Below are positions 4,215-35,359 of a stretch of 64,000 nucleotides of DNA, piece after piece. The position numbers and the translations under genes were made by a program. The notes below the pieces were generated by a model. The model saw only the letters and a list, made by a program, of their open reading frames with translations, was not told where the DNA came from and did not search any database. How positions within the stretch are numbered: position 1 is the first letter of the stretch; the number at the start of each line of letters is the position of its first letter. The stretch lies in contig NC_091127.1 in the NCBI RefSeq assembly GCF_040183065.1, positions 103,772,834-103,836,833 on the forward strand, given 5' to 3'. Origin of the DNA: Periplaneta americana (lineage: Eukaryota > Arthropoda > Insecta > Blattodea > Blattidae).

Positions 4215-4263
<49 letters not shown>

Positions 4264-5250: not shown

Positions 5251-5350
5251 TGAAATTGCTGAGTAATGATAAAAAAACATGTCTTTGATTATGTAGCATA
5301 ATAACCACCTATATTAAGGCTATGAAATTGATATGTAGTAGTAAATCAAT

Positions 5351-6878: not shown

Positions 6879-6899
6879 TGCAACTGATACGAAAATGGC

Positions 6900-8615: not shown

Positions 8616-8621
8616 GTTGCA

Positions 8622-9827: not shown

Positions 9828-10148
9828 TTACTCGCCTTTCTTTTTCTGAAACTCCAACTTGTGCATTTTCTTTCCATTACCTATCTCCACCTGTCCTTTG
9901 TATAGTAGAACAATGTCTGACTCATCATTCACCTTATTCAACAATGTGTCCGACATACTGCTAAATCGTTGTGGTAGAAAAACTGAAAATTCCTCTAGAA
10001 TTGCGAGGATTGTTGCCCCGTATCGAGTTCTTTTATTCTCCATGCTTTTTATTAAATATGGTTTTCCAGGTGTTAACTCTCCAATATTGTAAATCTTGTT
10101 CACGTATTCTCCGGTCCCCAAACGTGTAAGCATCGAGCAGGAATCCAT
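9828..10148 (-). CDS. 106-aa small protein of palindromic element, right copy
   Basis: Mirror image of the 5351-5671 gene, identical in length and deduced protein. Retention of an intact frame in both arms fits very recent formation of the palindrome, continuing gene conversion between arms, or selection; the sequence alone cannot separate these. The product is unknown; see the left copy for the motif description. It is transcribed towards the right arm's interior, that is towards the centre of the palindrome, as is the left copy. Confidence 0.6.
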   Translation of the reverse strand: MDSCSMLTRLGTGEYVNKIYNIGELTPGKPYLIKSMENKRTRYGATILAILEEFSVFLPQRFSSMSDTLLNKVNDESDIVLLYKGQVEIGNGKKMHKLEFQKKKGE

Positions 10149-11150: not shown

Positions 11151-11205
<55 letters not shown>

Positions 11206-14478: not shown

Positions 14479-14528
14479 TAATCAGTGTGATAACAACGAT
14501 TTTAATTTAGAATAATATTGCTTTTTAG

Positions 14529-14621
14529 CTCGATCCAGAACATCAGGGACATCGAGCCCGAGCAGCGAATCTGAAATAATGATCAAGGTCACAGAGGCTA
14601 GCTCTTCCACTTCTTCTGAAG
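14529..14621 (+). CDS. Putative cassette exon A (31 codons, phase 1-1)
   Basis: Bounded by acceptor ttgctttttag and donor GAAG|GTACAGTAATTG. Read as phase 1 the 93 bases are fully open: RSRTSGTSSPSSESEIM, then IKVTEASSSTSSE, a Ser/Glu-rich, probably disordered segment. Length is divisible by three, and entry and exit phases are equal, so inclusion or skipping keeps the frame. Exon B (300 bp downstream) shares the ending I-K-x-T-E-x-SSSTSSE. Exons C and D share the flanking intron sequences. The product is not recognised. It may be a member of a repeated-exon array that splices to the large exon at 32442. Confidence 0.6.
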
Positions 14622-14822
14622 GTACAGTAATTGTTTACATCAGTAGCATGTAGTAATTTTTGAAAGTAGGAAGCAGTAGCTAAATACAACCCATATAGAA
14701 GAAATGCATTTTCGGATTCAGGGCACACCAAACCATTGTTTTAAGTCAGAGAAAAATTCTTGTTGTTCAGTGTAATCAGTGTGATAACGACGATTTTAAT
14801 TCAGAATATTATTGCTTTTTAG

Positions 14823-14927
14823 CTGTACCCGGACCATCAGGGATGCAGCCGCGATCGCCGAGCCTGAGCATCAAGTCTAAAGGAGTGATCAAGATCACAG
14901 AGGGTAGCTCATCCACTTCTTCTGAAG
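14823..14927 (+). CDS. Putative cassette exon B (35 codons, phase 1-1)
   Basis: Acceptor attgctttttag and donor GAAG|GTACAGTAATTG. Open in phase 1: VPGPSGMQPRSPSLSIKS, then KGVIKITEGSSSTSSE. It is clearly a tandem copy of exon A with several amino-acid replacements but no stop or frame change, although the surrounding intron sequence also carries indels. That pattern suggests the coding frame has been kept. Confidence 0.6.
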
Positions 14928-15019
14928 GTACAGTAATTGTTTACATGAGTAGTGTGTAGTAAATTTTGAAAGTAGGAAGCAGTAGCTAAATACAACCCAT
15001 ATAAAAGAGATGCTGGATC

Positions 15020-15125
15020 TCTTTGGCGCTTGTTCCTGCGGTCATTTAGCTGACATCACCTTCTTTTCATTCAGACATTAGACAATACTAGCAGTTGATA
15101 AAGCATCGTAAAATAACCCATCAGA
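15020..15125 (+). repeat. SINE 3' tail fragment
   Basis: The sequence gacatcaccttcttttcattcagac ... gttgataaagcatcgtaaaataaccc matches the tail of the SINEs at 28044-28271 and 35107-35359. The tRNA-derived head is missing. Confidence 0.7.
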
Positions 15126-15324
15126 GAAGATTACTAGCACATGGGTTCAAGAACGAAAAAATTGGTCATTATTATTGATTTACTGCATTTGTCAGAAGAC
15201 TTCAATATTCTACTAGTGTATAATATTGACGGCTTCTCATAACACTGTAGGAGGAAGATGACTGTTCGTACAACAAAAATGCACTTACAGTACAGTGTAT
15301 CACATAAGTATATTGGAATTTTAG

Positions 15325-16020
15325 TTAAAGGTTTAGGTACAGGTTACAGCAGTACAATTTTTGGAAATATTCAACATGTTTTTCGTCCATTACTGTATCT
15401 TGTAGAATAATGAAAATTGGTATGTGTAAAACACTGTCTTTCTGCTATATGAAAAAAATATTTTTACGATTTCAAAAGTTACTTATATATTTTTTTCAGA
15501 ATTCATAATGGTGGCAGTTCACTGTGCTGTGATGAAGCGTTTCCTTCATAACTCATAAACTTGTTAACTTTTTCATGTTCTCTCTCTTTTATTTTATTGC
15601 TGAAACTCGTGTTTACGATATCATGCTCTTTGAACTACATTCCTTAATAAATAATTTTTTTTTTCATGTTGTGTTAGAAAATCATTTTTTTAAATGAATT
15701 TATTTTTATCAGATAATCTTTCAAAGCTAGGGAAGTGATCTTGCATCATATTGTACATATGACATGCATAAATACACAAAAAATTTCATCACAGAATGTT
15801 GGATAATTTTGAGTTATGTGAGAAACGCTTCAGTGAACTGAATTTTGAAAAGAAAAATTGTAAATAATTTTTTTAATCGTAAAAATATTTTTTTCATGTA
15901 GCAGAAGGACAATGTTTTACACACACTAATTTTCATTATAGTACAAGATACAGTAATGGAGGAAACAAATGTTGAATATTTCCAAAATTTTACTACTGTA
16001 AGCTGTACCTAACCCCTTAA
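15325..16020. mobile_element. MITE with long inverted repeats and TTAA target
   Basis: TTAA at 15325-15328 and 16017-16020 brackets AGGTTTAGGTACAG ... CTGTACCTAACCCC. The inverted arms extend about 220 bp (15329-15550 and about 15800-16016), covering the shared segments ATTACTGTATCTTGTA and CATGAAAAAAATATTTTTACG in opposite orientation. The central 250 bp are AT-rich and non-coding. A TTAA duplication points to piggyBac or Kolobok-type mobilisation. Confidence 0.8.
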
Positions 16021-16231
16021 TGTGTTTGAAATTTGTTCCAATAAACATAAAAAGCGTTTTTTGAAGACTTCCTCCTATAAATCATTATACTTAAGTAAAC
16101 ATACATACGTGGCCAACATGATTTCAATTTTACCAATAACATCATTATGTTGTAATAATTATTATGGAACAATTTACACACTTCAGAACAATGCTGTCCA
16201 ATTTGGACCACACTTATAATTTCATGTTTCA

Positions 16232-17433
16232 CTTACCGACTCTGAGATGCAGTGAACATCCCTGTTTCACTGTCGAAAGTCAGAACTGGTAGAGCTAGTG
16301 TTTAGTAGACTTTTAGCCTCGTATGTTTTTGAACTTGGGAGGGTTTGAAGACGGTGTTGATTACTCCAGTGGTTTTTATAAATTTAGATATTTTGCTTGC
16401 TATACCTTCATCAGTAATATCAGATAAATTGCAGCCTAAATAGTTAAATGAATTGACACGTTCAATTAATTTATTTGTCTTGATTTTCCTTGGAATTGGC
16501 TCTTGTCCCAAAATTCCATGAATTTTGTTTTCTCTGTAGAGATTTGCATATTGAAATCTGAAGCGATTATTTCTAGATTATAAACGGATTTTTGTAGATC
16601 TGTTTTAGCGATGAGAACCTGATCGTCAGCAAACAGTAATGTATCGAGAAGCGTGTTTCGATTAATTTGAATTCCGGCATGAAGACTTTGCCTCCAAATG
16701 TATAAAATATGGTTCATATTTATATGATAAATAGGAGAGGGGAAAGATCTCACCCCTGTCTCACACCTTGGTTTATTGAAGTCCAGCTAGTAGTTCCGCG
16801 TTCAGTTCTTATGTCAATTTCATTTTGTTGATATAAATTATAAATGGAAAAACTGATTGGATTTGGTACATTATCATGGCATAAAATCTGTAAAAGTTTA
16901 TTTCTGTTAACATTATGGAATGCTTTCAAAAGTCAATAAATGCTAAGTGTGTTTCTATATTAAACTCTCTGTGCTTTTCTATTAAATTCTTCATAGTAAA
17001 ATAGCCATCACAACATGATCTTCCTTTTCGGAATCCATTTTGTTCCTCAGTGATTTTGTCTTCATAAAGGTGTAATAATTTATTTTTGATTATGGTTGTG
17101 TAGATTTTATAACCTGAATTGAGAAGGCTTATGCCTCTGTAACTTCCACATTGTTCTTTTCCCCTTCTTATAGCTGGGTATTATAACAGCCTTTTTCCAA
17201 CTTTCTGGGAGTTTTGATCCTCCCCAAATATTGTTTAAGAAGTATAAAAATCTATAAGTAAATTCTTCCCCAGCGCATTTGAAAAGCTCTATATTTAAAC
17301 CATCTCCAGCTGGAGCTTATTCATTTTTTTAGCGTTTATATACTTTAGTGTGTTCGTCATAAGTAATAGCATCCGTTGTGTTGTTGTTGGAGTTCGTTAA
17401 TATAAGAGGCATATTTTTCTGGAACCATATATA
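16232..17433 (-). pseudogene. LINE reverse transcriptase, decayed (3' half)
   Basis: Minus-strand frames give, in N-to-C order, APAGDGLNIELFKCAGE, LPESWKKAVIIPSYKKG, NQGVRQGWDLSPLLF-type sequence, then LLFADDQVLIAKTDLQKS (the FADD catalytic motif), STEKTKFMEFW and ERVNSFNYLGCNLSD. Several frameshifts and stops separate them. The upstream linker part of the same LINE lies at 23662-23990, so one insertion (17434-23661) splits it. Confidence 0.8.
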
Positions 17434-17879
17434 GAGTGAATCAAAAGTCTGAAACCATACAAATATCTTCCATATGCTTGATTTTCGATTACTATAGTTG
17501 TTACCAGTATTTGTAAAATAAAACGCTCTACCAGTGACACATTCGATTCTAGCCCTCAGCTATATCAAAAGCCGCCATTTTGGATGCAACTTTGAAATTT
17601 TAAATGGAAAGGGGGTCATGTAAGTACTCAAAATCATGTGAAAGTTTCTGAAAAAATCAATGTCACTATCCATTTTGAGATATCTCAAATCATTTTCAAG
17701 TTATTTAAAGATCACTGTCATAATGACACAAACATTAGTTACAGCATCTACAGATATTTTGTAACAATATGGTAAGTGCTAAGGGTGCTTTGGAAAAGGT
17801 ATTTTTATGCAATTCTGGTAATCAACTTTTTCTAGTTTGCTGTTTGATTAACCTGTGGCAGTTTCAATGCATTGTTGTG

Positions 17880-18240
17880 ATTATTTGAAGCTTTCCTATA
17901 ACAAATTTCTTGATTTTCGTGATAGAATTATCGAAAGAGGAAAGAATTGATATCATTCTCCATTCTGGTAGGTAAGCAAAAGAAATGTTGCAGCAGACTG
18001 GATGAACAGTTCCCTGGACATTAGATTGGTCGGTGTGGACCAGTAGAATGGTCAGTCAGGTCTCCAGATGTATAGTCGGAGGCACCGATTTTGGCAGATG
18101 ACCTCAATGACATTTCCAGTAGGCGAGCCAATATTGTTTCTGTAAGTTGCGAGAATGAGATGCGATAACATTCTGAGTCGTTCATATTTTCATAACAGCA
18201 GCTCATATCAATTATCCTTATTATGAAACACACCACGGTA
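17880..18240 (+). pseudogene. Transposase fragment of the long-TIR element, left
   Basis: Adjacent to the left inverted repeat. The DNA encoding LSKEERIDIILHSG, through the region for WTLDWSVWTSRMVSQVSRC, is recognisably the same as the minus-strand copy at 20470-20690. It contains stops and frameshifts. Confidence 0.55.
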
Positions 18241-19600
18241 CAGTCCTACTCAAAGAATACCTTTAATAAATGTAAATGACTTCCGTTCTCAATGATTTTA
18301 CAATACGTCTCCTACATTTTCTAAATTAAATTAATTCTTAATTAAAAGGAAAATTCTACCTTTACCAGATCAATATACAAGATTTGTCCAGTAATAATCT
18401 AGGGATCGTCTACTGGTGGTGCGACAATTCAAGTTAATAAAATTACAATTCTTCTTAATAATCAAAATATAATTTGGTTAAATGGGTAAAATTGCATGCT
18501 GCGGAAGTTAGATTTATATAAGAGTATAATAAATAGGATTGTAATGGATATTACAAGGGCAATAATTTCTTCACACGCACATTGTGAATAGAACAGAGAA
18601 TAAAGCATTTTAAAATATTCGAAATCGTACAAAATATCGGAGAAACCAATTTTCCCTGCACAAATTGCACCAATTGAAAAATATAATTACCATTCACAAT
18701 AAATACTGTATTTTATGGATTCTAAAAAGTTGTTTATTAATCTAGAGGTATTGGCTGATGACTATACTAAATTCTAGCACAACATTCATTCAGAATATGT
18801 AGAAATTACACTTTGGATTTTACTAAATGTATAGGCCTACTATCAAAAGGTGTTACATACCCCCTTAAATACTGTACATGTGTTACCTGTGCGATATCCG
18901 ATGTTTAATTTTTAAAAATATAATTCATAGTACTGAAACTGCCATATTGAATTCGCACAAATTGTATTATTCGTAATTTTCGTCTCGAAAACCCCTAAGA
19001 TATCTAATTTAATTTTTCACCCATTTTTGTCCCACTCCACCACTTTACGGACAAAGTCGGACTAAATAATACCTTATTCGTATTCTGTGATCGCAAAGAT
19101 CCCCAAATATCGACTTTCATCGAGATCGGATGACATGAGATTTCTCACTCCCTTCTGCCTTTTCATCAGTACCTTAGGATATGGTATTTAAAAAATCTAA
19201 GAATGTTTAACCAATATTGTAGAGAGTAACCTTCACTTTAAATTTTACGTCTCTAGTTAAACATAGTTTAGTGAATTTTTAAAATCGTCGACTTCTTTCT
19301 CTCTCCTCTCTGCTCGGAAGTAAAATAAATAAATAAATAAATAAAATTTTAAAAAAAGTTATTTCAAGGGAGTAGCCTACATGAAATTGAATTTTTTTAC
19401 TTTTCTTATACATTTTAGAAACAATTCTGAGAGATGAGATGAATAGTCTAACCCAATTTTATGAGTGAATCTTTGTATTAAATTTAAAGGCTGCACGTCT
19501 GCTGATTAAACAAAATAAATCGGTATAATTATTTTCATCATTACTGCCTCCCATTTTCCATCCCTTAATGTTCGTATTTCGTAAAACTCAGTCTTATCTA
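18241..19600. other. AT-rich filler, no gene recognised
   Basis: No long frame, tRNA or clear repeat. Short (aaat)n occurs near 19327. It probably represents unknown inserted or diverged DNA inside the long-TIR element. Confidence 0.4.
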
Positions 19601-19622
19601 TTGACTAAAGATTAACATATTT

Positions 19623-19625
<3 letters not shown>

Positions 19626-19668
<43 letters not shown>

Positions 19669-20066
19669 CAGATTATATTTCCATTTCGTACAATATTCTG
19701 GTCACGAGACATAATCATATACTTTGTCTTCTCGGGATTTACCACCAAACCTATCGCTTTATTTGCTTCAAGTAAAATTTCCTTCTTTTCCATAATCGTT
19801 TGTGGAGTTTTTCCTAACATATTCACGTCATCCGCATAGACAAAAAGCTGATGTAACCCGTTAAATTCCAAACCCTCTCTGTTATCCTGAACTTTCCTAA
19901 TAGCATATTCTAGAGCGAAGTTAAAAAGTAAAGGTGATAGTGCATCTCCCTGCTTTAGCCCGCAGTGAATTGGAAAAGCATCAGATAGAAACTGGCCTAT
20001 ACGGACACTGCTGTAAGTTTCATTGAGACACATTTTAATTAATCGAACAAGCTTCTTGGGAATACC
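19626..20066 (-). pseudogene. RTE-like LINE internal RT fragment ending in (TA)n
   Basis: It encodes [40 protein letters not shown] and [16 protein letters not shown], including the Y-A-D-D catalytic box. It is about 90% identical to the matching part of the larger LINE at 20690-23184. It is truncated at both ends; the 3' side runs into a TA tract at 19626-19666. Confidence 0.85.
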
Positions 20067-20227
20067 AAAGACACATATAGACTACTGTAATATTTGTTTA
20101 GTTTTTGGAGGTGTCTGTCCAGAGTGCACAAATACTCGGGCGTGCATGTTTACTCTTATGTCCTACCCATTCCACTGCGACAGAGATAACAACCGATCTT
20201 GCAGCGGTGAGAACTCCCTCTCCAGAT

Positions 20228-20690
20228 CGCAATAAGAAAATCCATCTGCCAAAATTCCTGGCGCGACCTATAACACCTCTAGATTTTTTCTTTTGGGGTT
20301 ACATAAAGAACTTGATATATGGAAAGAAAATTGAGAATGTGGAGAGAACATTTTGTAGCACTTTAGCACAATCTTCAATGATACGATTCTTTAAATGTTC
20401 CACATTCTCAATTTTCTCATCATATACCAAGTTCTTTATGTAACCCCAAAAGAAAAAATCAAGGGGTGTTACATCTGGAGACCTGACTGACCATTCTACT
20501 GGCCCACGCCGACCAATCCAATGTCCAGGGAACTGTTCGTCCAGTCTGCTGCAACATTTCTGTGGCTAAACCCACCAGAATGAAGAATGATATCAATTCT
20601 TTCCTCTTTCGATAATGCCATCATGAAAATCAAGAAATTTGTTATAGGAAAGCTCCAAATAATCACAGGCAGAGAAGGCCTGACGGCCTT
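20228..20690. repeat. Inverted transposase fragments forming a hairpin
   Basis: On the plus strand 20270-20340 encodes the block ITPLDFFFWGYIKNLIYGKK, typical of the C-terminal catalytic region of IS630/mariner transposases (the usual form is D-x-x-PLDFF-WG). The same DNA, about 68 bp, returns inverted at 20395-20470 with a spacer near 55 bp. It continues on the minus strand to 20690 as the N-proximal part of the gene (SKEERIDIILHSG). Two transposase pieces are therefore joined head to head. Confidence 0.65.
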
Positions 20691-23184
20691 ATCTCTACCA
20701 AATTACTTACTTACAAATGGCTTTTAAGGAACCCGAAGGTTCATTGCCGCCCTCACATAAGCCCGCCAGCGGTCCCTATCCTGTGCAAGATTAATCCAGT
20801 CTCTATCATCATACCCCACTTCCCTCAAATCCATTTTAATATTATCCTCCCATCTACGTCTCGGCCTCCCTAAAGGTCTTTTTCCCTCCGGTCTCCCAAC
20901 TAACACTCTATATGCATTTCTGGATTCGCCCATAGGTGCTACAAGCCCTGCCCATCTCAAACGTCTGGATTTAATGTTCCTAATTATGTCAGGTGAAGAA
21001 TACAATGCGTGCAGTTCTGTGTTATGTAACTTTCTCCATTCTCCTGTAACTTCATCCCGCTTAGCCCCAAATATTTTCCTTAGCACCTTATTCTCAAACA
21101 CCCTGAACCTATGTTCCTCTCTCAGAGTGAGAGTCCAAGTTTCACAACCATACAGAAGAACCGGTAATATAACTGTTTTATAAATTCTAACTTTCAGATT
21201 TTTCGACAGCAGACTGGATGATAAGAGCTTCTCAACCAAATAATAACATGCATTTCACATATTTATTCTGCGTTTAATTTCCTCCCGAGTGTCAATTATA
21301 TTTGTTACTGTTGCTCCAAGATATTTGAATTTTTCCACCTCTTCGAAGGATAAATCTCCAATTTTTATAGTTCCATTTCGTACAATATTCTGGTCACGAG
21401 ACATAATCATATACTTTGTCTTTTCGGGATTTACTTCCAAACCTATCGCTCTACTTGCTTCAAGTAAAATTTCCGTGTTTTCCCTAATCGTTTGTGTATT
21501 TTCTCCTAACATATTCACGTCATCCGCATAGACAAGAAGCTGATGTAACCCGTTCAATTCCAAACCCTGCCTGTTATCCTGAACTTTCCTAATGGCATAT
21601 TCTAGAGCGAAGTTAAAAAGTAAAGGTGATAGTGCATCTCCCTGCTTTAGCCCGCAATGAATTGGAAAAGCATCAGATAGAAACTGACCTATACGGACTC
21701 TGCTGTATGTTTCACCGAGACACATTTTAATTAATCGAACTAGTTTCTTGGGAATACCAAATTCAATAAGAATATCATATAATACTTCCCTCTTAACCGA
21801 GTCATAAGCCTTTTTGAAATCTATGAATAACTGATGTACTGTACCCTTATACTCCCATTTTTTCTCCATTATCTGTCGAATACAAAAAATCTGATCAATA
21901 GTCGATCTATTACGCCGAAAACCGCACTGATGATCCCCAATAATTTCATCTACGTACGTAGTTAATCTTCTCAAAAGAATATTGGACAAAATTTTGTACG
22001 ACGTCAACAAAAGTGATATTCCTCGAAAGTTACCACAGTTGGTTTTGTCCCCCTTCTTAAAAATAGGTACAATTGTGGACTCCTTCCATTGTTCTGGTAC
22101 AATTTCCTTTTCCCAAATAGCAAGTACAAGTTTATAAATTTCGCTATATAATGCACTCCCACCCTCTTGTATTAATTCTGCTGGAATTTGATCGATACCT
22201 GGAGACTTGTACTTTTTCAGATTTTCTATCGCAATTTCGACTTCTGAAAGCGTGGGTTCGGGTATAAATGGCTCAGCAGTTTGTATTTCAATTTCGTCCC
22301 GATCATTTCTATTTGGCCTATGTACATTTAGTAGTTGCGCAAAATAGTTTTTCCATCTGTTTAGGATTGATGGAGAGTCTGCAAGCAAGTCACCATTCTC
22401 ATCCTTGATCACGTTTACCCTTGGCTGATATCCGTTCTTAAATTCCTTTATACCCTTATATAAATCTCGAATGTTTTTATTCTTACTATTTGTTTCTACC
22501 TCATTCAGTTTTTCCTTCAAGTAACCTCTCTTTTTATTCCTAAGTGTACGACTTGCTTCCCGTCTTTCATTGAAATAATTATCTCTCTTCTCCTCAACTG
22601 GATCCTGTAAGAATTTCAATTTTGCCTGTTTCCTTCTTTCTACTACCATGCAACAATCTTCATCAAACCACGGTTTCTTTTTCTTAGTTTCATAATAACC
22701 TATGCTCTGCTCAGCTGCAATTTTGATACTATCTCTGATATTTTCCCACACGCTATTAACATCTAATTCTTTCTCAACTTCGTCGGAACTTTCTAAAGTG
22801 GCAAACCTATTCGAAATTTCGACCTGATAATTTTGCTTAGCTTCCTCGTCCTTTAATTTCAAAATATTGAATTTAGTAATATTAACTTGTTGCTCTACTC
22901 GCTTGGCTACTGATAATCTTTCTCTTAATTCTCCAATCACCAAATAATGGTCAGAATTACAGTCTGCACCCCTGAAAGTTCGAATATCTACTATACTAGT
23001 ATGTCTCCGTTTATCTATCAAGGTGTGATCTATTTGGTTGTGTGTCAATCCATCTGGAGAAGTCCAAGTATATTTATGTATATCCTTATGGGGGAATGTT
23101 GTACTTTTGACAATTAAATTTTTCGATGTGGCAAAATTGACTAATCTAACTCCATTGTCACTACTAATTGCGTGTAGGCTCTCT
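20690..23184 (-). pseudogene. RTE-like LINE, 5'-truncated, one nonsense codon
   Basis: The long minus-strand frame from 23048 encodes the end of the apurinic-type endonuclease ([14 protein letters not shown], then [16 protein letters not shown]), a Lys-rich linker, then RT. RT motifs seen are [55 protein letters not shown] and [14 protein letters not shown] single TGA at 21255-21257 (Gly in the copy at 30347) separates it from the C-terminal part (20724-21239) with LYGCETWTLTLREEHR and RRRWEDNIKMDLREVGYDD. The frame also continues upstream to about 23184 in the endonuclease. Only a partial endonuclease and one visible stop remain, so the copy is young. Confidence 0.9.
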
Positions 23185-23204
23185 AAATAAATAAATAATA
23201 AATA
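23185..23204. repeat. (AAAT)n at LINE 5' junction
   Basis: A short ctaaataaataaataataaa stretch lies between the truncated LINE and the right inverted repeat. Confidence 0.5.
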
Positions 23205-23661
23205 CTAAACAATGCATTGAAACTGTCACAGGTTAATCAAGCAGTAAAACAGAAAAAGTTAATTACCATAATTGCGTAAAAATACCTTTTCCAAAGCCCC
23301 CTTAGCACTTATGATATTGTTACAAAATATTTGTAGATGGAGTAACTAATGTTTGTGTCATTATGACAGTGATCTTTAAATAACTTGAAAATGATTTGAG
23401 ATATCTCTAAAGCGATTGCGACATTGATTTTTTTAAGAAAATTTCACATGATTTTGTGTACCTACATAACTCCCTTTCCATTTAAAATTTCTAAGTTGCA
23501 TCCAAAATAGCGGTTTTTGAGATAGCTGAGGGCTAGAATGGAATGTGTCACTGGTAGAGCATTTGGTCTTACAAATACTGGTAACACCTATAGTATTGGA
23601 AAATCAAGCATATGGAAGATATTTGTATGGTTCCAGACTTTTGATTCATCCTGTGATTAAG

Positions 23662-23990
23662 AAGAGATTCATTTGGGATAGGATTTGTAACAACATTTTC
23701 TTTTATCTCCGAGTTTATTTTCTTTAAAATTTTTAAAGTTTTTGGTTTTGGTAATGATACATCTTTTCTAATCTTGAAACAAAATCATTCCATTTATCTC
23801 TTTGTCGCTCCCTTTTTTCCCCGTTTTGCAATTGTCCACTTTCTTTTATATTCTATTTCATCTTCAAGTTTTTTCATTGTAAAAATCAGAGATATGCTTC
23901 CCGTTTATCATTTATCACCTTTTTGATATCTTCATCCCATTTAATATACCTCTTTTTCTCTTCTGTTTAGAATTTTTAGGCCATTTTATG
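23662..23990 (-). pseudogene. LINE linker region, displaced 5' part of the same LINE
   Basis: The minus strand gives KRYIKWDEDIKKVINDKREAYL and RERQRDKWNDFVSRLEK, a pattern typical of the segment between endonuclease and RT in insect LINEs. It has the same orientation as 16232-17433 and sits directly beyond the inverted repeat at 23205-23661, so it is the other side of the interrupted LINE. Confidence 0.6.
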
Positions 23991-24079
23991 GCATAGGCCT
24001 ACGAGTAGCTTCTAGCCACATAACTTATCCTTTTCAGTTGAAAATTTGAGAACTGTAACATACAACACTCACTTACAGC

Positions 24080-24340
24080 ACTCTGATAATTGCTGGTACA
24101 CACAAGCACACAACATTTAGGAGCCTTCTGTAACTAAAAGAATATGAATAAATTAATTTCATTTTTTTAATAAAAGTCTAAACTTCCTTTATTTCAGTTC
24201 CTTGAATTTATTTTTCTTTGAGGTTATACCTATATTAGAGGTAACCGTTACTACGTGCTTCATCTTTTGATTCCTTTTCAGACTTTACTTTTATGATTCA
24301 GTTATTGTTAACAGCTTGGTGACGTACATGTTGTCATACT
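24080..24340 (+). other. Conserved intron block upstream of cassette exon C
   Basis: Segments such as catttaggagcc, gaggttatacctatat and tatgattcagttattgttaacag, then gtgacgtacatgttgtcat, recur upstream of exon D (about 29370-29930). The last part also recurs upstream of exon A (13265-13300). It marks duplicated intronic DNA that travels with each exon. Confidence 0.6.
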
Positions 24341-24341
24341 A

Positions 24342-24570
24342 CAGTCCATCCGAGTGGTTATGTCACTCGGTCGTCAAAAGGGGGAAATCACATGAAAGTT
24401 ACTTACTTAAGGAAGCCCTTTTCCTCAAAGTATTTTAAACAGTTATATAATACTACGTAGACTTTCAATTCCGTACAGCAAATATTTGCAGAGAAGAGCC
24501 TAACAGCCACTAGCCATTATAGAGAGGAGTGGGACAACCCGGGATGCGACATAACCATTCAGCCGGACAG
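24342..24570. mobile_element. 229-bp MITE with CAGTCCATCCGAGTGG ends
   Basis: The left end CAGTCCATCCGAGTGGTTAT and the right end, inverted CTGTCCGGCTGAATGGTTAT, show imperfect inverted repeats of about 25 bp. There is no coding capacity. It interrupts the intron block that is continuous in the other cassettes. The target duplication is unclear. Confidence 0.55.
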
Positions 24571-24651
24571 TACCTACGAGTGTTTATCCTTTTCATAGAT
24601 AGCAATCACTGTGTTACAAAGATTTCAACTCAGAAATACACTGCCTTTTAG

Positions 24652-24780
24652 CAGAAGATGAAATACGTGCAGACGAGCTGACAAGGATGATGATGTTGAT
24701 AGAAGGTGATACTTCGAGTAGCGGCAGTGACACCCCATCCGTCGAAAGGGTGATGCTGATAGTGCGAAAGCTTAATGAAG
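24652..24780 (+). CDS. Putative cassette exon C (43 codons, phase 1-1)
   Basis: Acceptor ctgccttttag, donor GAAG|GTACAGTAACTGTTTAC. Open in phase 1: EDEIRADELTRMMMLIEG, then DTSSSGSDTPSVERVMLI and VRKLNEG. It is more divergent from A/B in protein, but the acidic/Ser composition, the phase and the donor context are the same, and the intron 3' end (tcaactcagaaatacactgc) aligns with those of A, B and D. Length is a multiple of three. Confidence 0.6.
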
Positions 24781-24830
24781 GTACAGTAACTGTTTACATT
24801 TTTAAGTAGTTGTGCTTTCAGGGTATGCAC

Positions 24831-25638
24831 AAGTTCAAGACATTTGAATGTTTACTGGTGCAAGCATGCCTCGGTAATTAGAAAATAAGAGATTACAAAG
24901 GTTTGGGCACCTTAAAAAAATGGAAAGAGAGAGACTGCCAAAGAGAATATTAAATTTAAAAGTGAAAGGAAGACGACCATTAATTTAACATTTTAACACG
25001 AAATTCTTTAGCTTTTTAATAAGACAGTAAACATAATCAAATCATAGTATTAAATCGTTTCTTATCACAGTGTGCAGTCAGTCAAAACAGGAATACAATA
25101 TCGAACTCAAAATTTAAAGCTCTGAGAAAACTGCATTTTTAAGCGGGGGCTAAAAGGGTTTGAACCCACTCTGAACTTTTTGAAAAAAAAATTACATACA
25201 GTATTTAGATTTGAATATTTTTTTAGCCACAATTTTTTTTCTATTTCTAATTTTTCACTGTCTGAGTAACAAAATCTACATCAGTACAAGGCATAGTCTT
25301 CCTACCCCTTCTTCAATATAATCCCTGTCCTAGGTGCTGCGACACATACGAGTTATAACAATGCTATCTTTTTATACAGGGAGACCTACTGCCTCCTACC
25401 AACGCTGTAATAAACTGAAGCTGACACAATATGAAACTGAAAAGGTTGTTTTGACAGTTCTATAGTGCAGATGTTAAATATTGTGCACTGTCGATTTTAT
25501 TATACTCAATTTAAGAGTGATATTCACCAGTTTGTTGGCGTTATGACATAATTGTGAAACATTCGTTTAACGTTTTGTGCATTTGATAGTTCATATTTTT
25601 AATGTAAACTTCACATTATCGTTCTGGGTTCTTTGATC
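24831..25638. other. AT-rich region, no gene recognised
   Basis: No convincing reading frame or repeat. It ends at the target duplication of the P-like element. Confidence 0.4.
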
Positions 25639-26127
25639 GTCTAAGCAGGACGAATAGAAGAAATAGTGTACGCACTTCTATGCTTTCCCTTTGTCGGTGG
25701 CAGAGCTGACAACGAGTGGCGCTTTGATCACTAAGCTCCATCTGTTGTCTGAAGTCAGATACCTCGAAAATATATTTCTCGCGCGTTTAATGATGAAAGT
25801 TGCTAGATGTCTTCAATTTGTTGTGCTTTGAATTAACCAGTGACAAAAGAATATTGTGGGTGGTTTAAAAATTAATTACAAAAATTCCGTACTGTTTTGT
25901 TCTGGGTTATAGATAGGAATACAGTGGACATAGTGTAACAAGACATTTCTTTTCATCTCCCAAAGAAAAAGATGAGTTTGGAAAGTGGGCCAGAGCGGAA
26001 AGATAGGCAGCTTTCAGTAGATAACCAATAAGACTGTTTTAATAAAAAAAGTCAAAAGACAGAAATACCGCAAGTGCGTTGAAAATTACAACCAAGAGTT
26101 GTACCTCACATTTTCCCTAATTTACCG

Positions 26128-27770
26128 AAATGATTAAATAAGTATATGAAAATAAACGTTGCAGAGTGGTAATAATCGATGAGGTCAAATTCAGAGAAGA
26201 AATTCGATTTAATAATTATTCCCTTAAAGTGGATGTATTTGTTGATTTCGGAGATCTCACATCTGATGTCCAAGAGAAACAATTAGCAAATCATGCATTA
26301 GTATTTATGCAAGATTGGATTCAACCAATTGCTATTTACGCTAGCAGAAACGCTACTCCAGGTGATATTCTCGCTAAAATTCTTATACAAGTTATACTAC
26401 AATTAGAAGCAGTTGGGACGAGAGTAGTCGGTTTCACTTGTGATGGCAGTCAAACAAATAGAAAGGCCTGGACGAAAAAAAGAAAGATACGGGCATTCTC
26501 AGATTTTGTGCACATACTGAAATGCATAAGTAATTATTTCCATGATAAAATCGAACTCTCTTGCAAGGAGAAAAATATCAATTTTAGTTTTTATAGGAGA
26601 CTTTTTAAGGAAAACGTATTTGCATGTGCGAATGTGTAGGGTTTGTCCCAAGTTGACAACAGCTCATTTAGATCTCTCGTCCTTTAAGAGCAAGGATGCC
26701 ACCAGACTCGCGTTCCAACTCTTCACCAACAGTGTCGCCAAAGACCTCAAATTTTATCGAGAACTAGGGTCATCGGGTTTCGAAGGCAGTGAGGGCACTG
26801 AAGAATTTACAAGGCATTTAAACTGTATTGCCGCCGCATTAAATTCACACATTTCTGCTAAGGTTCTTTATAAAGACCCTTCTGATCACTAATTCCTTAC
26901 TGATTTTCTTCAGTGTCTCACAATTACAACCAACACATTTGCGTCTGCTACAACAATGTTTAGTAGTAACCTTGCAGAGTACCTTAGAAATGAGCGAATG
27001 GCTCTAGAGCAAATGATACAAATATATCCTATCAGGAAACTCGCCCAAGACCGCTTGGAACATCACTTCGGAATTTTGTCTTCAGTCAGATCAGATGACC
27101 ATCCTTTGACGATAGATTTCCTCCATATCCATTTACTACGAAGCAGATCCTTCTTAACATTGCTGGAAACTCTGAAACGAAAAGTGATGATGAACTACTA
27201 CTCACATCGTTTGTGAACCAAATTCAAACATTAGCGCAAAATGTGGAATTACTCAACAAGACAATTAAGAAGTCTGTAGAAACTTGTATACAAAAAAAAA
27301 AAATGTTATTCATGAAAAAATACATGGTCAATACTGGGAAAGTGCTGTGCGCGAGTTGGTGAATACCATTCCTGCTGGTGTTGATTGACAGATGTTTAGT
27401 GTATTATGTGGCCGGTTATGTCGTAAATCATTCCTTTAAGTTTATTGCGTGTACCCTCTGTGCCCTTCGACAGGAATGTAATAAGTCTAAATATTGTACA
27501 GCTCTCACTCAAATCAAAGACCACGGATCAGGTAGGAACGTCAGTATTTTAACTCATTCCTCCCAAGCTGTGTATGACTTACTTATTCAAACAGAATTGA
27601 AAATAACAGAAAAGATTAGCTCAACAAATGCAATGTGGGATGACATCTATCTTGACGCTCTTTCGATCCAGTCTTGGGAAGCAGGTTGTTGCAGAGAACA
27701 CATCATCGATATTATTCTTAAATTAGTCTACCACTATTTAAAGTGCCGATTCTTCTTCAGGACAAAGTAA
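26128..27770 (+). pseudogene. P-element-like transposase, frameshifted
   Basis: Pieces in three frames give, in order, VIIDEVKFREEIRF (first catalytic Asp region), YASRNATPGDILAKILIQVI, TRVVGFTCDGSQTNRKAW (second Asp region), FSDFVHILKCISNYFHDK, FKSKDATRLAFQLFTNSVAK, LAQDRLEHHFGILSSVRSDD (catalytic Glu region, with H-P-L-T-DF) and LVYYVAGYVVNHSFKFIACT. This order matches P/THAP9-type transposases. At least three frame breaks (near 26560, 26900 and 27240-27370) and stops inactivate it. No THAP domain was seen. Confidence 0.8.
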
Positions 27771-28043
27771 ATCCGAAGATTTTTACAAGCTCGTAAATCC
27801 GTCAAGTCATCTCGCAAACTCTCAAAGGTAGCAGGCAACTAATCATGGTGACTAATTTAATTCATTTATAGGCACATAAAATATCATTCAACTCTTTATT
27901 TACTAGCATTTCGTAGGTTTTTCTGTCCCTGAATTCGCAACTTGTTACGAAAAGATTATTTAAATATTGAACTTATAATTGCTTTCACAACATTTCAGAT
28001 CCCATTGTATTTTCTGTTACGAACGTTCATAATAGTAATACCT

Positions 28044-28271
28044 GTCCACACCTGTGGAGTAACGGTCAGCGCGTCTGGCCGCGAAACCAGGTGGCCCGGG
28101 TTCGAATCCCGGATGGAGCAAGTTACCTGGTTGAGGTTTTTTTCCGGGGTTTTCCCTCAACCCAATATGAGCAAATGCTCAATGACTCATTTCACCAGCA
28201 TTATCACCTTCATTTCATTCAGACGCTAAATAACCTAGATGTTGATACAGCGTCGTAAAATAACCCAATAA
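28044..28271 (+). mobile_element. tRNA-derived SINE, complete, with 13-bp target duplication
   Basis: AATAGTAATACCT at 28031-28043 and 28272-28284 brackets it. The head has an A-box-like gtggagtaacggtcagcgcg and a B-box GGTTCGAATCCC. The body has gaggtttttttccggggttttccctcaacc and the tail ends gcgtcgtaaaataaccca. A tRNA-Arg-like anticodon loop is possible but not certain. Confidence 0.85.
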
Positions 28272-28665
28272 AATAGTAATACCTCACAGAAGACTATTAA
28301 TTATGAATAAGAGACTATAAAGGTATTTCTTAAGTTACGAATAGCCGGGTTAACTGAAAGAAATTTGCTTTTAAAAAGGACTACAATCAGCGTAACAAGT
28401 ATTGTGAATTCCTTCCGAGTCCGCGCTTAGCAGTAACAGCAGTGTAAACTCACAGAGTGCGTACACTATTTCTTCTATTCGTCCTGGTCTAAGCAACCGC
28501 AAAGCTCACTTTTACATATTTTTTAAAATCAGAAAGTCGCGTATTTATTCTCGCGAGGATAGTGAAAATTTCACATTTTCAAATGTTTCTTTGCAGCGTG
28601 ATGATGTTATCGCTAACGTTCTTCCTGGAATTACTTTCACATCCTTATGTCAAAAGTCAATTGCT

Positions 28666-28669
28666 GCTG

Positions 28670-28748
<79 letters not shown>
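28666..28748 (+). repeat. (AAT)n microsatellite
   Basis: About 26 AAT units with one AGT interruption. It is the tail of the minus-strand SINE that follows; apparent poly-Asn or poly-Tyr frames here are not genes. Confidence 0.9.
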
Positions 28749-28749
<1 letters not shown>

Positions 28750-29090
28750 CTGTGGCGCCATAGCCCTTCAAGGCTTCAGACCAGCAGTCAGCTGTTGGCC
28801 TCACGTTCAGATGCAGAAGCAGAGGTGGACGATCATCCAACTAGAATGGAGGTTGCATGTGGTTAGCGCGATGATCCCCTGAGCTGTTATAGCTTGCTTT
28901 CGCAACCAGATTTCGCTCATTTTCGTAGCTCCCCAAGTGCATGACAATGCTAGGTGGGCACTGGTCCCATACACTGTCCAAAATTTCATGAGAAAATTTG
29001 TTCCCCCATGAGGACTGGAACTAGCGCGCATCCATAATGCGAGTCCTAAGTAGAATGCCTTAGACCTCGGTGCCACAGCGCGGGACTCAT
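28749..29090 (-). mobile_element. tRNA-derived SINE with (ATT)n tail
   Basis: On the minus strand it begins with a tRNA-like gtcccgcgctgtggcaccga and a degenerate B-box (ctagttccagtcc). The body (gcgagtcctaagtag, ccatactgtcc) is shared with the copy at 55640-55985, and it ends at the AAT tract. The family is recognised only by comparison inside this window. Confidence 0.75.
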
Positions 29091-29404
29091 TTTCTGTTTT
29101 AGATGTCCTATAATAGCTCAGGTACTGTGGGTTTGTGTAGTTTACCTATACAGAATAACAATCTCAATATTTTTCCAAACACTTTTTTATCCGTCCCTGT
29201 AATAGATTCACCTATTGAAAACTAGCAGAACTATTTCATAGTTTCTCAGTTTATTATATATTTAATTCTGATCTATTCCACTGTTAGGAAGTTCGCTCAC
29301 TCTTACATGATCAGAAAATTGTAGGCCAGATGCCTTTGAACGCCAGTTTATACACAGGCACTCTACATTTAGAAGCTGTGAATAAAAGAAGAAGGATAAA
29401 TCAA

Positions 29405-29815
29405 TTTCATTTCTTAAATAAAATTCAATGCCTTGCCATAAAACAGCTCACTATTCTTCTTCTTTCACAGTATATCAGCAATTCGTTTTTGGAATTCCCT
29501 ACCCAGCTCTCTCAGGAACTGTCGAACGATTTACATTTGAATTTGTTATTTTTGTAATTTGTAATAATGGTTCACTTACCGCTTGCATATTCATTCAATG
29601 TAACTTCTAGCCTTATATTATTTTGTAATTATTATTTAGTATGTTTGCATTACTTTACTCAACTTTTGCTTGTATGACTATGTAAATTTTTTATTAGTGT
29701 TCTATAAATGTTAGTCTGTAAAACTGCATCAGATTCTTTTTTTTTCCGGCTAAGTGGAAGAGAAGGTCTGATGGCCTTAACTTCGCCAGAAAAAATAAAT
29801 ATTATTATTTTTTTT
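29405..29815 (+). pseudogene. LINE 3' end with UTR tail
   Basis: A short C-terminal frame (LLLSQYISNSFLEFPTQLSQ) is followed by a T-rich UTR and ggaagagaaggtctgatggccttaacttcgcc with (aaat)n. The same gaaggYctgaYggcctta signature ends the LINE 3' region near 20680. 5'-truncated. Confidence 0.5.
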
Positions 29816-29829
29816 TTTCTTTAAGGCTA

Positions 29830-30013
29830 TATGTGTGTTAAAAGTAACTTTACTACGCACTTCAGCTTTTGATTCTTTTCGAACTTCACTTTTATGATTT
29901 ACTTATTATTAATAGTTTGATGATGTACATATTGTCTACTTACTTAATATGCAACCTATTTATTCTAACAGTTTATTACGACGATTTGAACTCAGAATTA
30001 TATTGCATTTTAG
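29830..30013 (+). other. Conserved intron block upstream of cassette exon D
   Basis: It contains aggctatatgtgtgttaaaagtaac, tatgatttacttattattaatag, gatgatgtacatattgtc and tacgacgatttgaactcagaattatattgc, each alignable with the blocks before exons A, B and C. It is uninterrupted by transposons here. Confidence 0.6.
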
Positions 30014-30100
30014 ATGGACAAGGAGAGAGCGACTCCCACACCAGCGAATACAGAACACCAAGCCTCATCACATTGTGGAGTCGCTACTGTCCTGCTGAAG
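30014..30100 (+). CDS. Putative cassette exon D (29 codons, phase 1-1)
   Basis: Acceptor ttgcattttag, donor GAAG|GTACAGTAATTGTTTAC. Open in phase 1: GQGESDSHTSEYRTPSL, then ITLWSRYCPAEG. The same phase, acidic/Ser start and identical donor context as A-C support common origin. The protein core has diverged. 87 bases, divisible by three. Confidence 0.6.
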
Positions 30101-30346
30101 GTACAGTAATTGTTTACATCCTGAAGTGATGGTCGAAGGAATGAATATGTGATACAATTAAATAATAAAATAGGAAAATAAAATAATTAGATACTTAGAG
30201 TACTGACATTCTACTGAAGATATCATTATCTTCTGTACCAAAGCATGCAGGATAATTTTCTCTTTATCCTTAGACTCCTTGCATATATGAGGAAGTTCCC
30301 ACCATCGAGTGCAGTTCAGAGAAATATTTTACGTGTTGACAAACAA

Positions 30347-31018
30347 ATGGAAATATAAAAATTGGAAATTTATCCTTTGAAGAGGTGGAAAAATTCAAAT
30401 ATCTGGGAGCAACAGTAACAAATATAAATGATACTCGGGAGGAAATTAAACACAGAATAAATATGGGAAATGCCTGTTATTATTCGGTTGAGAAGCTTTT
30501 ATCATCCAGTCTGCTGTCAAAAAATCTGAAAGTTAGAATTTATAAAACAGTTATATTACTGGTTGTTCTTTATGGTTGTGAAACTTGGATTCTCACTTTG
30601 AGAGAGGAACATAGGTTAAGGGTGTTTGAGAATAAGGTGCTTAGGAAAATATTTGGGGCTAAAAGGGATGAAGTTACAGGAGAATGGAGGAAGTTACACA
30701 ATGCACAACTGTACCCATTGTATTCTTCACCTGACATAATTAGGAACATTAAATCCAGACGTTTGAGATGGGCAGGACATGTGGCATGTATGGGCGAATC
30801 CAGAAATGCATATAGAGTGTTAGTTGGGAGGCCGGAGGGAAAAAGACCTTTGGGAAGGCCAAGACGTAGATGGGAGGATAATATTCAAATGGATTTGAGG
30901 GAGGTGGGATATGATGACAGAGACTGGACTGATCTTGCTCGGGATAGGGACCTATGGCAGGCTTATATGAGGGCGGCAATGAACTTTTGGGTTCCTTAAA
31001 AGCCAGTAAGTAAGTAAT
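30347..31018 (+). pseudogene. RTE-like LINE 3' fragment, open, with target duplication
   Basis: TTGACAAACAA (30336-30346) and TTGACGAACAA (31019-31029) flank it. It holds the C-terminal part of the RT protein as one open frame of 204 codons from 30385: [36 protein letters not shown] and RRWEDNIQMDLREVGYDD, ending in a stop at 30999. The family is the same as 20690-23184. The endonuclease and RT catalytic core are missing, so it is not functional. Confidence 0.9.
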
Positions 31019-31029
31019 TTGACGAACAA

Positions 31030-31110
31030 TTCAGAATATTATTGTTTTTACAAAATATGCTAATTTGGGGCTTTATTCCACAAAATCCTGAAAATATGGT
31101 ACACTACATG
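31030..31110 (+). pseudogene. Degenerate fifth cassette copy (E)
   Basis: Directly after the LINE, ttcagaatattattgtttttac matches the intron end of exon B (ttcagaatattattgctttttag) but the AG acceptor is lost. The other half of the intron end (ttttacgtgttgac) is upstream of the LINE at 30328-30340. No open exon or GTACAGTAA donor follows. Confidence 0.45.
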
Positions 31111-31689
31111 ATAAATAATGTATTATATACACGAACACCTGAAATATGCAAAAATATAGGGGAAAGTAGCTATCAATGGACCACCTACCGATTTCTTATT
31201 TTATCTAACAAAGACAGTGCCTTAAAATTCTGTTCATAGGCTTGAACAATTACATTACTAATAAGGAATGATAAAATAAAGTTTCAGGGCTACATCCTAC
31301 TTATATCTGTTTAAAGATTGGTTCATTTAATATTCAGCTATTGGTTCAATGAAGGCGACAGGGTCCTATGAATGGACCACCATGTTCCCATGAATGGACC
31401 AAAAGAAAAATTTAAAAAATATCTCAAAATAATGTCAACAAAGAAAAAGTCATAATAATAAAGAAACATAGATTCGATTAATGGACGTTGAACTTACTTT
31501 CAATCCAATTATAATCGTATTTTGAAACTGAAAATATGAAAAACACAGTCCTTGTCATTTCAATATTTTAAAATTTTAGGCTATTTCAAATTAGCTAATA
31601 AATTAGTTAAAAATGTTAGTACACAACTTTAAGTTACAACATAATGATGTGATTGTACATACAAAATTATTTTCTGAAGTCTGAGATTA

Positions 31690-31990
31690 TTCATATACCG
31701 TAAATAAAACAGTCTTCCTTTTCAAGACATACATGCCACACGAAGAATTTCTTTTGACCCCGCCTAACATTTGTACAAGCTTCATTTACCATTTCCTGCA
31801 AGACATACACTGAATTACATTTTCCTCGAAGGTTTTTTCACACATGAAACAAAACCAGGTGTCTTGATTTTGATTACTTCCTGAAGGGAATTGATTTCCA
31901 TCCTTTTTAAAATGTAGTCCATTCATGGGAACTCCAGTTGGTCCATCCATAGTGACTTCGCCATTTTCTAATCACACTTCAAGAGTTCTG
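31690..31990 (-). pseudogene. Zinc-finger tail of pogo/jerky-like transposase, fragment
   Basis: The minus strand reads DTWFCFMCEKTFEENVIQCM, then SCRKW, a stop, MKLVQ and VKRNSSCGMYV. The order C-x2-C ... C-x2-C-x-x-W resembles the PHD-like tail found on many insect pogo-type DDE transposases. One stop is visible where H is expected. Repeated tcccatgaatggacca motifs at 31370-31410 and inverted near 31925 may be related element ends. Confidence 0.4.
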
Positions 31991-32441
31991 AAGAGGTTAT
32001 ACAAAATGTATGAATATACAACTAAAAGGAAGCAGAAAGAATACTGCTTCCAACTACATATGTAATTTCATAACTAAATGTCATTAAGCTAATCTACTCT
32101 GTATGTAAAGTTACTTTAAAATTACAGCAGAAATAACAAAAACATATCTGAGCTTCATGTTCAGCCCACGTGTTTGGTGACATTTAACGCATACACAGGC
32201 AATATGACCAAGAATATGGCAGCAGTCCGTTGAAAGCAGCGGTTCATCGATCGCTACTCTCCTCTATACAATTAATTTTGAGTATTCGTCATTACAGTCC
32301 TTCAAAACATGTATAAAATGGACGGCAAAAATATGCAGTTGCATACAAATCCTGGCCCTATTAATAAGTTGTGCCATTCACTGAAAGCTAGTGAATGCAA
32401 TTACACATGCTTAACGATCAAGTTTATTTTGTTTCTTGCAG

Positions 32442-33757
32442 AGTTCATCATCCCAGATATACAAAATGGAATGCCAGAATCACCACCGATGCCAGGTCCT
32501 GTGCCAGCTGCTGTGCTAGATCCTGTGCCACCTGCTGTGCGAGATCCTGTGCCACCTGCCGTGCCAGATTCAGTACTAGTTGCCTTGCCAGCTGATATGC
32601 CAGATATTATTCCATCTGCCATTCCAGATACAGTGCCAGTTGCCGTGCCAGTACCTGTACTAGATCCTGTGCCAGCTTCCGTGCCAGATACTGTGCCAGA
32701 ATCCGTGCCATCTTCTGAGCCAGCAGCCGTGACAGATTCTGTGCCATCTGCCGTGCCAGATCTTGTGCCAGCTGTCGTGCCAGATACTGTGCCAGCAGCC
32801 GTGCCATCTTCTGTGCCAGATGCAGAGCCAGCAGCCGTGACAGATTCTGTGCCAGCTGCCGTGCCAGATACTGTGCCAGCTGCCGTGCCATCTTCTATTC
32901 CAGCAGCGGTGCCAGATGCAGAGCCAGCAGCCGTGCCAGATCCTGTGCCAGCAGCCATGCCATCGTCCATGCCAGCAGCCGTGCCATATCCTGTACCATC
33001 TGCCGTGCCCGATCCTGTGCCAGCTGCCGTGCCAGAACCTGTGCCAGCTTCCGTGCTAGATACTGTGCCAGCAGCCGTGCCAGATGCAGAACCAGCAGCT
33101 GTGACAGATTCTGTGCCAGCAGCCGTGCCAGATCCTGTGACGGCTGCTGTGCCAGATACTGTGCCAGCTGCCGTGACAGATACTGTGCCAGCAGCCGTGC
33201 CATCTTCTGTGCCAGCAGCCGTGCCAGATGCAAAGCCAGCAGCCGTGACAGATTCTGTACCATCTGCTGTGCCAGATCCTGTGCCAGCTGCCGTGACAGA
33301 TATTGTGCCAGCAGCCGTGTCATATCCTGTACTATCTGCCGTGCCAGATCCTGTGCCAGCTGCCGTGCCAGAACCTGTGCCAGCAGCCGTGCCATCTTCT
33401 GTGCCAGATGCAGAACCAGCAGCCAAGACAGATTATGTGCCATCTGCCGTGCCAGATCCTGTGCCAGCTGCAGTACCAGATACTGTGCCAGCTGCCATGA
33501 CAGATGCTGTGCCAGCAGTCATGCCATTGTCCGTGCCAGATCCTGTGCCAGCTGCTGTGCCAGATGCCGAGCCAGATCGTGTGCCAGCTGCCGTGGCAGG
33601 TCCTGTGCCAACAGCCGTGCCAGCTCCCATGCTAGCCCTATCTGTATCAGCAGAAGAAGGAGAAGAAGATAAGGACAGAAGTATGAAGAGTGGGTGCTGG
33701 GCGTGTTTCAGTTATGTATATCGTGGGCTTCGTCGTCTTTTTAGGCGCAAGTCATAA
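32442..33757 (+). CDS. Large last exon: Val-Pro-Ala repeat protein (438 codons)
   Basis: A good acceptor (ttattttgtttcttgcag) precedes an exon that enters in phase 1, the same phase in which the upstream cassette exons leave. It begins FIIPDIQNGMPESPPMPG. About 45 repeats of a four-residue V-P-x-A/D motif follow (24-bp DNA period, VPAAVPDP). The non-repetitive end is SVSAEEGEEDKDRSMKSG, then CWACFSYVYRGLRRLFRRK. The tail combines two Cys, aromatics and a polybasic cluster, which could anchor the protein to a membrane; that is inference. The frame is open for 1.3 kb despite the repeats. The antisense long frames are by-products. The family is not recognised. Confidence 0.6.
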
Positions 33758-33896
33758 ATTTTATGTCTAAGAGCTATTTTCAGATAGATCACCCTCGGTG
33801 TTTTCCTGTGTTTCCCTCCCCACTTGTCCATAGTTAAGCAATTCGGTTACGCTAGTAGTAAATTATGTAGGCCTACACTCCTTAATGTTACCAACC

Positions 33897-35106: not shown

Positions 35107-35359
35107 TTTTTTTATTGGGTTATTTTACGACGCTGTATCAACATCTAGGTTATTTAGCGTCTGAATGATATGAAGGTGATAATGCCGGTGAAATGAGTCC
35201 GGGGTCCAACACCGAAAGTTACCCAGCATTTGCTCGTATTGGGTTGAGGGAAAACCCCGGAAAAAACCTCAACCAGGTAACTTGCCCCAACCGGGATTCG
35301 AACCCGGGCCACCTGGTTTCGCAGCCAGACGCGCTGACCGTTACTCCACAGGTGTGGAC
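35107..35359 (-). mobile_element. tRNA-derived SINE with target duplication
   Basis: TAGTACTTCC at 35095-35104 and 35360-35369 flanks it. Same family as 28044-28271, in opposite orientation: the minus strand gives ccacacctgtggagtaacgg, then B-box GGTTCGAATCCC, then the gacgctaaataacc tail. Confidence 0.85.

Follow-up and report, generated by a model that had tools for sequence, protein, structure and literature searches.

The genome of the cockroach Periplaneta americana (3.23 Gb searched) carries, in a 64,000-nucleotide stretch at C11:103772834-103836833 that we call the window, four short cassette exons (E1 to E4) followed by a large last exon, all on the forward strand. Judging from sequence comparison, the four exons appear to be part of a large, uncharacterised cockroach gene family. 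The exon junctions of the window gene were predicted from genomic DNA alone. All four cassettes, E1 (14529..14621, 93 nt), E2 (14823..14927, 105 nt), E3 (24652..24780, 129 nt) and E4 (30014..30100, 87 nt), are symmetric, with a length divisible by three, phase 1 at both ends and an open frame, as an earlier note on this DNA had stated. They also share the splice contexts that it described: the donor GAAG|GTACAGTAAYTGTTTACAT is exact in all four, and an acceptor context of about 40 nt, which at E1 consists of a branch-point-like stretch and TTTTAG, is conserved (14489..14528, 14783..14822, 24612..24651 and 29974..30013). Conserved donor blocks follow the exons at 14622..14640 (GTACAGTAATTGTTTACAT, E1), 14928..14946, 24781..24799 and 30101..30119. 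The E1 and E2 units with their flanks are a tandem duplication (80% identity). Homologues of E1 were found at two loci on C8 (L084 and L087) and a homologue of E4 at locus L102.

The last exon (32442..33757) is entered in phase 1, again in agreement with the earlier note, and is open over 437 codons; it contains a Val-Pro-Ala array (~32490-33627), an acidic stretch and a Cys/basic tail CWACFSYVYRGLRRLFRRKS, and ends at a TAA stop. The adjoining stretch (33758..33857), presumably the start of the 3' untranslated part, is as diverged from the paralogs as intron sequence is. In 144 kb scanned with a weight matrix, exactly E1-E4 were recovered as acceptor-donor pairs, while one weak acceptor-only match was obtained in shuffled sequence and one weak donor-only match on the reverse strand. 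A fifth, degenerate copy had been reported near 31030; only 22 nt resembling an acceptor (31028-31049) could be confirmed there, with neither donor nor exon. A forward-strand frame between E4 and the last exon (30340-30999) is similar to the 3' end of a long interspersed nuclear element (LINE), with no Pfam match, and a LINE with an open 649-codon frame and a reverse transcriptase domain (PF00078) occupies 21255-23204 on the minus strand.

Family size and exon symmetry

The genome-wide search for the donor context, which the earlier note had proposed, gave 279 exact copies against 0 in the reversed control, and 769 copies against 40 when up to two mismatches were allowed. Exact copies were also found for the acceptor word (55), the last-exon acceptor word (53) and the first-exon word (401), and all the exact-word controls were 0. 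The acceptor context was present at 58 of the 78 donor-word places read; the symmetry count was made on these 58, the remaining 20 having a different type of acceptor or too short a sequence. The 58 places correspond to 52 distinct exons, 51 of which have a length divisible by three, and the frame is open in 47 of these 51 (shuffles expect 7.5). When exons were selected by the acceptor instead (40 of the 55 acceptor-word places), a donor was found in 28, of which 16 were symmetric, and 14 of these 16 were open. A cassette start is fused to the last-exon tail at two places, L107 and L123. The cassettes in both samples range from 45 to 207 nt.

It is evident that the content of the cassettes varies more than their splice-site contexts, as previously suggested, since the acceptor context is kept among 18 exons with a similarity ratio below 0.6. 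The idea of an undescribed gene with an expandable set of interchangeable exons holds for the undescribed gene and for its frame-neutral cassettes; that the exons are interchangeable, or that their number varies within a gene, is at most a possibility, E3 having the same flanks and neighbours in the paralogs compared. The same note had named a high-copy dispersed repeat with mostly broken exons as the outcome that would speak against it. The units are indeed high-copy and dispersed, but most donor-word exons are intact. With regard to selection, a check of the dN/dS type gave a pooled ratio of replacement to silent differences per site (pN/pS) of 1.14 within the RHDTT cluster, 0.68 within E1/E2 and 1.09 within GHED; these three clusters were covered and the two smallest were left out. 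A literature search aimed at cockroach in open-licence PMC texts showed nothing on the family among its listings.

Gene structure, first exon and spread of the family

The order of first exon, cassette(s) and last exon was found in the annotated P. americana proteins P0002, P0010, P0016 and P0020, the cassettes of which differ in type from those of the window. Several annotated family proteins are named as isoforms, and P0002 and P0003 differ solely downstream of the cassette, as expected of splice forms. Residues 1-56 and 55-128 of P0002 lie in order on C14, ~2.5 kb apart. P0020 on C2 has the family structure and a Pro-rich last exon like that of the window, and is apparently a family member. 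The name under which it is annotated, "tetra-peptide repeat homeobox protein 1-like", probably misleads and seems to have been taken from its low-complexity repeat.

In sequence, the first exon is similar to the beginning of a LINE open frame, with its splice site placed shortly ahead of the endonuclease. In P0025, KNSGRKLAPQSDVRVG stands ahead of an Exo_endo_phos domain (E 6.7e-14). P0023 and P0024, judged by eye, have a similar start leading into endonuclease-like sequence, with a domain match below the cut-off in P0024 (E 0.02) and no domain match in P0023. In the copies read, the first-exon donor lies just 5' of the endonuclease-like stretch, which extends into the intron. The endonuclease word has 73 copies and is 236 bp from the first-exon word at three C3 places, and some annotated models (P0017, P0022) continue into LINE sequence. 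Orientation was compared at 52 of 55 listed donor places on C1-C3: a first-exon word was present no more than 60 kb away at 43 of them, and in 43 of 43 the two lie on the same strand; this test used 51 of 100 listed first-exon places and left out the 49 in two C3 arrays.

The last exons consist of variable repeats followed by the Cys/basic tail. With 38 aa of the tail as query, 150 of 560 candidates were scored as matches, none with an internal stop (E 3e-19 to 2), although the weakest (E up to 2) may be chance. Their open frames range from 54 to 3,217 codons; in the longest one the final 793 codons were read, with the family tail at the end, and its repeats and those of a copy on C4 are unlike those of the window. 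A Pfam scan of five family proteins (P0002, P0010, P0014, P0016 and P0020) gave no domain. A low-confidence structure model of P0002 (mean predicted local distance difference test score 54) has helices at 85-127 and 140-165. The product is probably intracellular and largely disordered, with helical cassettes and a basic amphipathic tail. We infer that it is produced in the germline because intronless copies exist.

These results make it likely that the window contains the main part of a gene belonging to a large P. americana family built from a LINE-derived first exon, cassettes and a repeat last exon. The transcript of the window gene would start before the window, in a LINE-derived first exon that covers the 5' end of the element from its start codon to just ahead of the endonuclease, with the donor ...CAG|GTAAG. 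This exon would be spliced in phase 1 onto the symmetric cassettes, which could be kept, skipped or multiplied with the frame intact, and the cassettes would then be spliced to a last exon with variable repeats and the conserved Cys/basic tail.

Several observations weigh against this reading. The first exon closest to the window gene lies ~3 kb before the start of the window and is out of phase, leaving the activity of the window copy in doubt. No annotated protein matched residues 1-160 of the window model among 1852 candidates of 316-1006 aa; the matches to P. americana proteins seem due to an added RHDTT-type cassette rather than to the window's own exons, and the spliced E1|E2 junction word had no match in the genome. 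At the level of the family, 12 of the 40 acceptor-selected places were without a donor, and 12 of the 28 with one were asymmetric. The latter comprise three sequence types at four places each, and one type, EEETTGPMM...KLEVHL followed by a stop, is the end of the annotated protein P0001. In an array at C2:59.30-59.42 Mb (L009-L020), the cassette is located ~1.1 kb downstream of the last-exon stop, so that the exon order is not universal; the array reflects either alternative last exons or another gene order.

The out-of-phase first exon and the lack of a match among the 316-1006 aa candidates would be explained if the window copy is a pseudogene in decay while other family members are active. 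We give this possibility a chance close to even, if slightly below it: the four cassettes and the 437-codon last exon are still open, and a second first exon ~10 kb upstream of the window (7 kb beyond the nearest one), though more diverged, is in phase. The claim for the family is independent of the fate of the window copy.

It is also conceivable that the units represent all or part of a transposable element with a chance open segment, and that their exons are used by no gene. The high copy number, the presence on many chromosomes and the LINE-like first exon are as expected of such an element, and the RQEENDK copies of C1 and C2 share ~99% identity across 2.6-3 kb. We probed the edges of duplication with 1-kb probes around three RQEENDK copies. 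For the copy at C1:82.8M, matches were confined to the probe 2 kb upstream and one downstream probe in a shifted position; its probes at 5 kb upstream and 10 kb downstream were unmatched, so that homology may stop there as at the end of an element. On the other hand, the copies at C1:184.1M and C3:53.6M match at both 5 kb upstream and 10 kb downstream, an extent exceeding most elements, which suggests spread by large duplications for at least this pair. The frames are preserved while lengths change by threes, such exons are present in annotated proteins, and the first exon and cassette are co-oriented without exception in the 43 pairs. Altogether, we regard an element with exons used by no gene as very unlikely.

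Some family members are intronless and form tandem arrays with very long open frames at C3:43.2-43.6, C3:46.0-46.2, C14:54.96-55.14 and C14:66.28-66.44 Mb. Matches in these arrays cross from the first exon into the cassette without a gap, and ~60-70 nt further on the last-exon tail is matched weakly (53-55% identity, E ~3e-6). Their frames are commonly open for 1,200-1,800 codons, some being much shorter, and the units are repeated in tandem. On sequence grounds, the simplest reading is that the arrays arose from a retrocopy of spliced mRNA that was later amplified, though the frame extends far past the tail, which speaks against a simple retrocopy.

Other features of the window include a near-perfect palindrome (2625-12792) with main arms of ~5 kb each that are 98-100% complementary, and with 39-bp tandem repeats around its centre (6926-8610). 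A P-element-like transposase with 560 open codons (PF21787, PF21788, PF12017, PF21789) is encoded at 60836-62518 on the plus strand, and transposase-like remnants with DUF659 and DUF4371 lie on the minus strand at 38127-38870 and 52118-52837. An ATTT-type simple repeat of 3.8 kb (41498-45341) has extreme AT skew, and its long open frames come from composition. Two Rfam tRNA matches (48320-48392 on the plus and 35283-35355 on the minus strand) may be tRNA genes or tRNA-derived short repeats.

Divergence of coding sequence between paralogs

E3 with its flanks was found at seven other loci: two on C17, four on C8 and one on C14. At C8:158.74-158.76 Mb, the endonuclease word, first exon, E1, E2, E3, E4 and last exon follow each other in the window's order, E3 being found in the 4-kb stretch predicted from the window spacing. 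E4 was not found in the C17 stretch L159.

Comparison of the window gene with this C8 gene shows that its coding parts diverge far above the surrounding non-coding DNA, an observation made in one gene group. E1-E4 differ at 55 of 405 sites (13.6%) and the intron at 148 of 4430 (3.3%; Fisher 4.7e-16). Intron divergence is 3.5% within 25 nt of an exon and 3.3% more than 1 kb away, and the untranslated and intron flanks diverge by 1-5%. In E1-E4, silent sites (27/89, 30%) and replacement sites (29/304) both exceed the intron, the silent ones ~nine times within the same duplicated segment, and pN/pS is 0.32. The unique coding ends of the last exon diverge by 13-15%, its intron by 5% and the post-stop stretch by 4-5%. 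In these ends silent (0.16-0.18) and replacement (0.12-0.14) divergence are nearly equal, and the whole last exon, with many gaps, gives pN/pS 0.88-1.07. The first exon differs by 11.5% in its coding part, 4.5% on its 5' side and 1.0% in its intron, the window copy being the out-of-phase one.

This acceleration is not general in the family. None was seen in the RQEENDK and RPEGFY subfamilies or among the asymmetric types. Hand-picked pairs other than the window and C8 genes had silent divergence of 0.082, about twice that of the flank (0.039); in all, 20 pairs were hand-picked from 1166, and several share a gene. Steady acceleration is disfavoured, since the coding part of the two C8 first exons (3/157) is less diverged than their 5' side (6/198), and also by the pN/pS of the whole last exon given above.

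E3 provides an additional comparison. Against C17, it has 12.5 changes in 26.5 silent sites, 5.5 in 99.5 replacement sites and 9 in 300 flank sites. With C14 as outgroup, the C17 branch carries seven silent changes and one replacement and the window branch one silent and four replacement changes, five being unresolved; flank changes are three and five, respectively, of 289. These counts are small. The window branch would fit decay of the window copy, and it adds to the case for the pseudogene considered above.

Three simple causes do not account for the divergence. Positive selection alone does not fit the window/C8 pair, in which silent sites are raised more than replacement sites. CpG decay alone fails because CpG transitions are too few, at 38 of the 196 exon differences and 16 of the 166 flank differences found in the 20 pairs. 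Exon-wide acceleration at the RNA level is weakened by the post-stop 3' side, which retains the intron rate.

Introns homogenised while coding variants are kept apart have been argued for HLA class I. The accessible part of PMC12674619 neither supports nor denies this view. Likewise, introns of the window gene and its paralogs may be homogenised by gene conversion, with diversifying selection holding the coding variants apart; elevation of both silent and replacement sites between the window and C8 agrees with this scenario. However, the divergence rises in a step at the exon edge, where conversion should leave graded edges, and we consider it rather unlikely. We put a somewhat smaller, still modest chance on another scenario, in which the coding sequence of at least one family branch has been rewritten by a process that respects coding boundaries and mostly keeps the protein. 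An older paralog could have supplied the template through its spliced mRNA after reverse transcription, from which exons would be copied; this is conceivable in view of the LINE-like first exon and the intronless arrays. Another candidate is mutation targeted to coding DNA and followed by purifying selection.

Donor block and comparison with known systems

The cassette donor of the family is GTACAGTAA, and a block of 20 nt, GGTACAGTAAYTGTTTACAT, is conserved in 24 distinct acceptor-selected exons, with variation climbing sharply beyond the block. The most variable base within it is +4 (6/24). The donor GTA(C)AGTAA would match U1 well only with one base near +4 bulged: duplex prediction gave -8.4 with one bulged base and -5.6 without. 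Bulge registers are associated with more alternative 5' splice-site selection in the portion of PMC9311317 consulted. If good pairing depends on the bulge, the donor may be weak and regulated, favouring alternative inclusion of the cassettes.

Alternatively, the block may be conserved as coding sequence: when the donor is unused, the frame would read GTV(I/T)VYI... to an early stop and provide an alternative C-terminus. The C-terminus of P0006, GTVTVYILK, resembles such read-through, and a stop occurs within 12 codons in that frame at 55 of 84 donor places. The other two frames also have early stops, within 12 codons at 84/84 and 27/84 places, so that this frame does not stand out. Moreover, the changes inside the block (7, 12 and 5 at codon positions 1, 2 and 3) do not favour the third position, and conservation ends at 20 nt, ahead of the stop. 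We hold it to be highly improbable that the block is conserved for its translation.

The family has partial parallels. Schistosome micro-exon genes (MEGs) have removable symmetric exons and lineage-restricted variable proteins, with transposon involvement (PMC8293314, as far as its available text goes). The cockroach exons share this symmetry in 51 of 52 donor-selected cases, yet only in 16 of 28 acceptor-selected ones. MEG exons are at most 36 bp in that text, whereas the cockroach cassettes are longer throughout, and the cockroach first exon is LINE-like and, by eye, without a signal-peptide-like stretch. The bicycle genes of aphids are a fast-evolving insect family in which nearly all internal exons have one phase, starting at codon position 2 (PMC9168663, available sections). 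The cockroach cassettes likewise start at codon position 2, and 47 of 51 are open in that phase. This likeness was drawn from exon structure; bicycle genes average ~17 exons in the same sections, while the cockroach proteins and loci read hold one to four cassettes. In snake venom toxin genes (ASSET), introns are similar and differences are concentrated in exons, as in the window gene. Replacement changes there commonly exceed silent ones (PMC2711939, accessible portion for both statements), in contrast to the window/C8 cassettes with silent above replacement. As for LINEs with Exo_endo_phos, their N-terminal segment is like the cockroach first exon (by domain search in P0025 and by eye in P0023 and P0024). 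On the other hand, no LINE sequence was recognised in the cassettes or the last exon, and the endonuclease and reverse transcriptase that a LINE joins in one product are missing from the five scanned members.

Finally, the conserved 20-nt donor block would be a natural test case for bulged U1 pairing. The cause of fast exon evolution is a long-standing question, and a divergence confined to exons, silent sites included, makes it testable among selection, intron homogenisation and RNA-templated copying. In this cockroach genome, the end of a LINE has apparently been turned into a first exon present in hundreds of copies, and this is a clear example of a new, modular family of genes.

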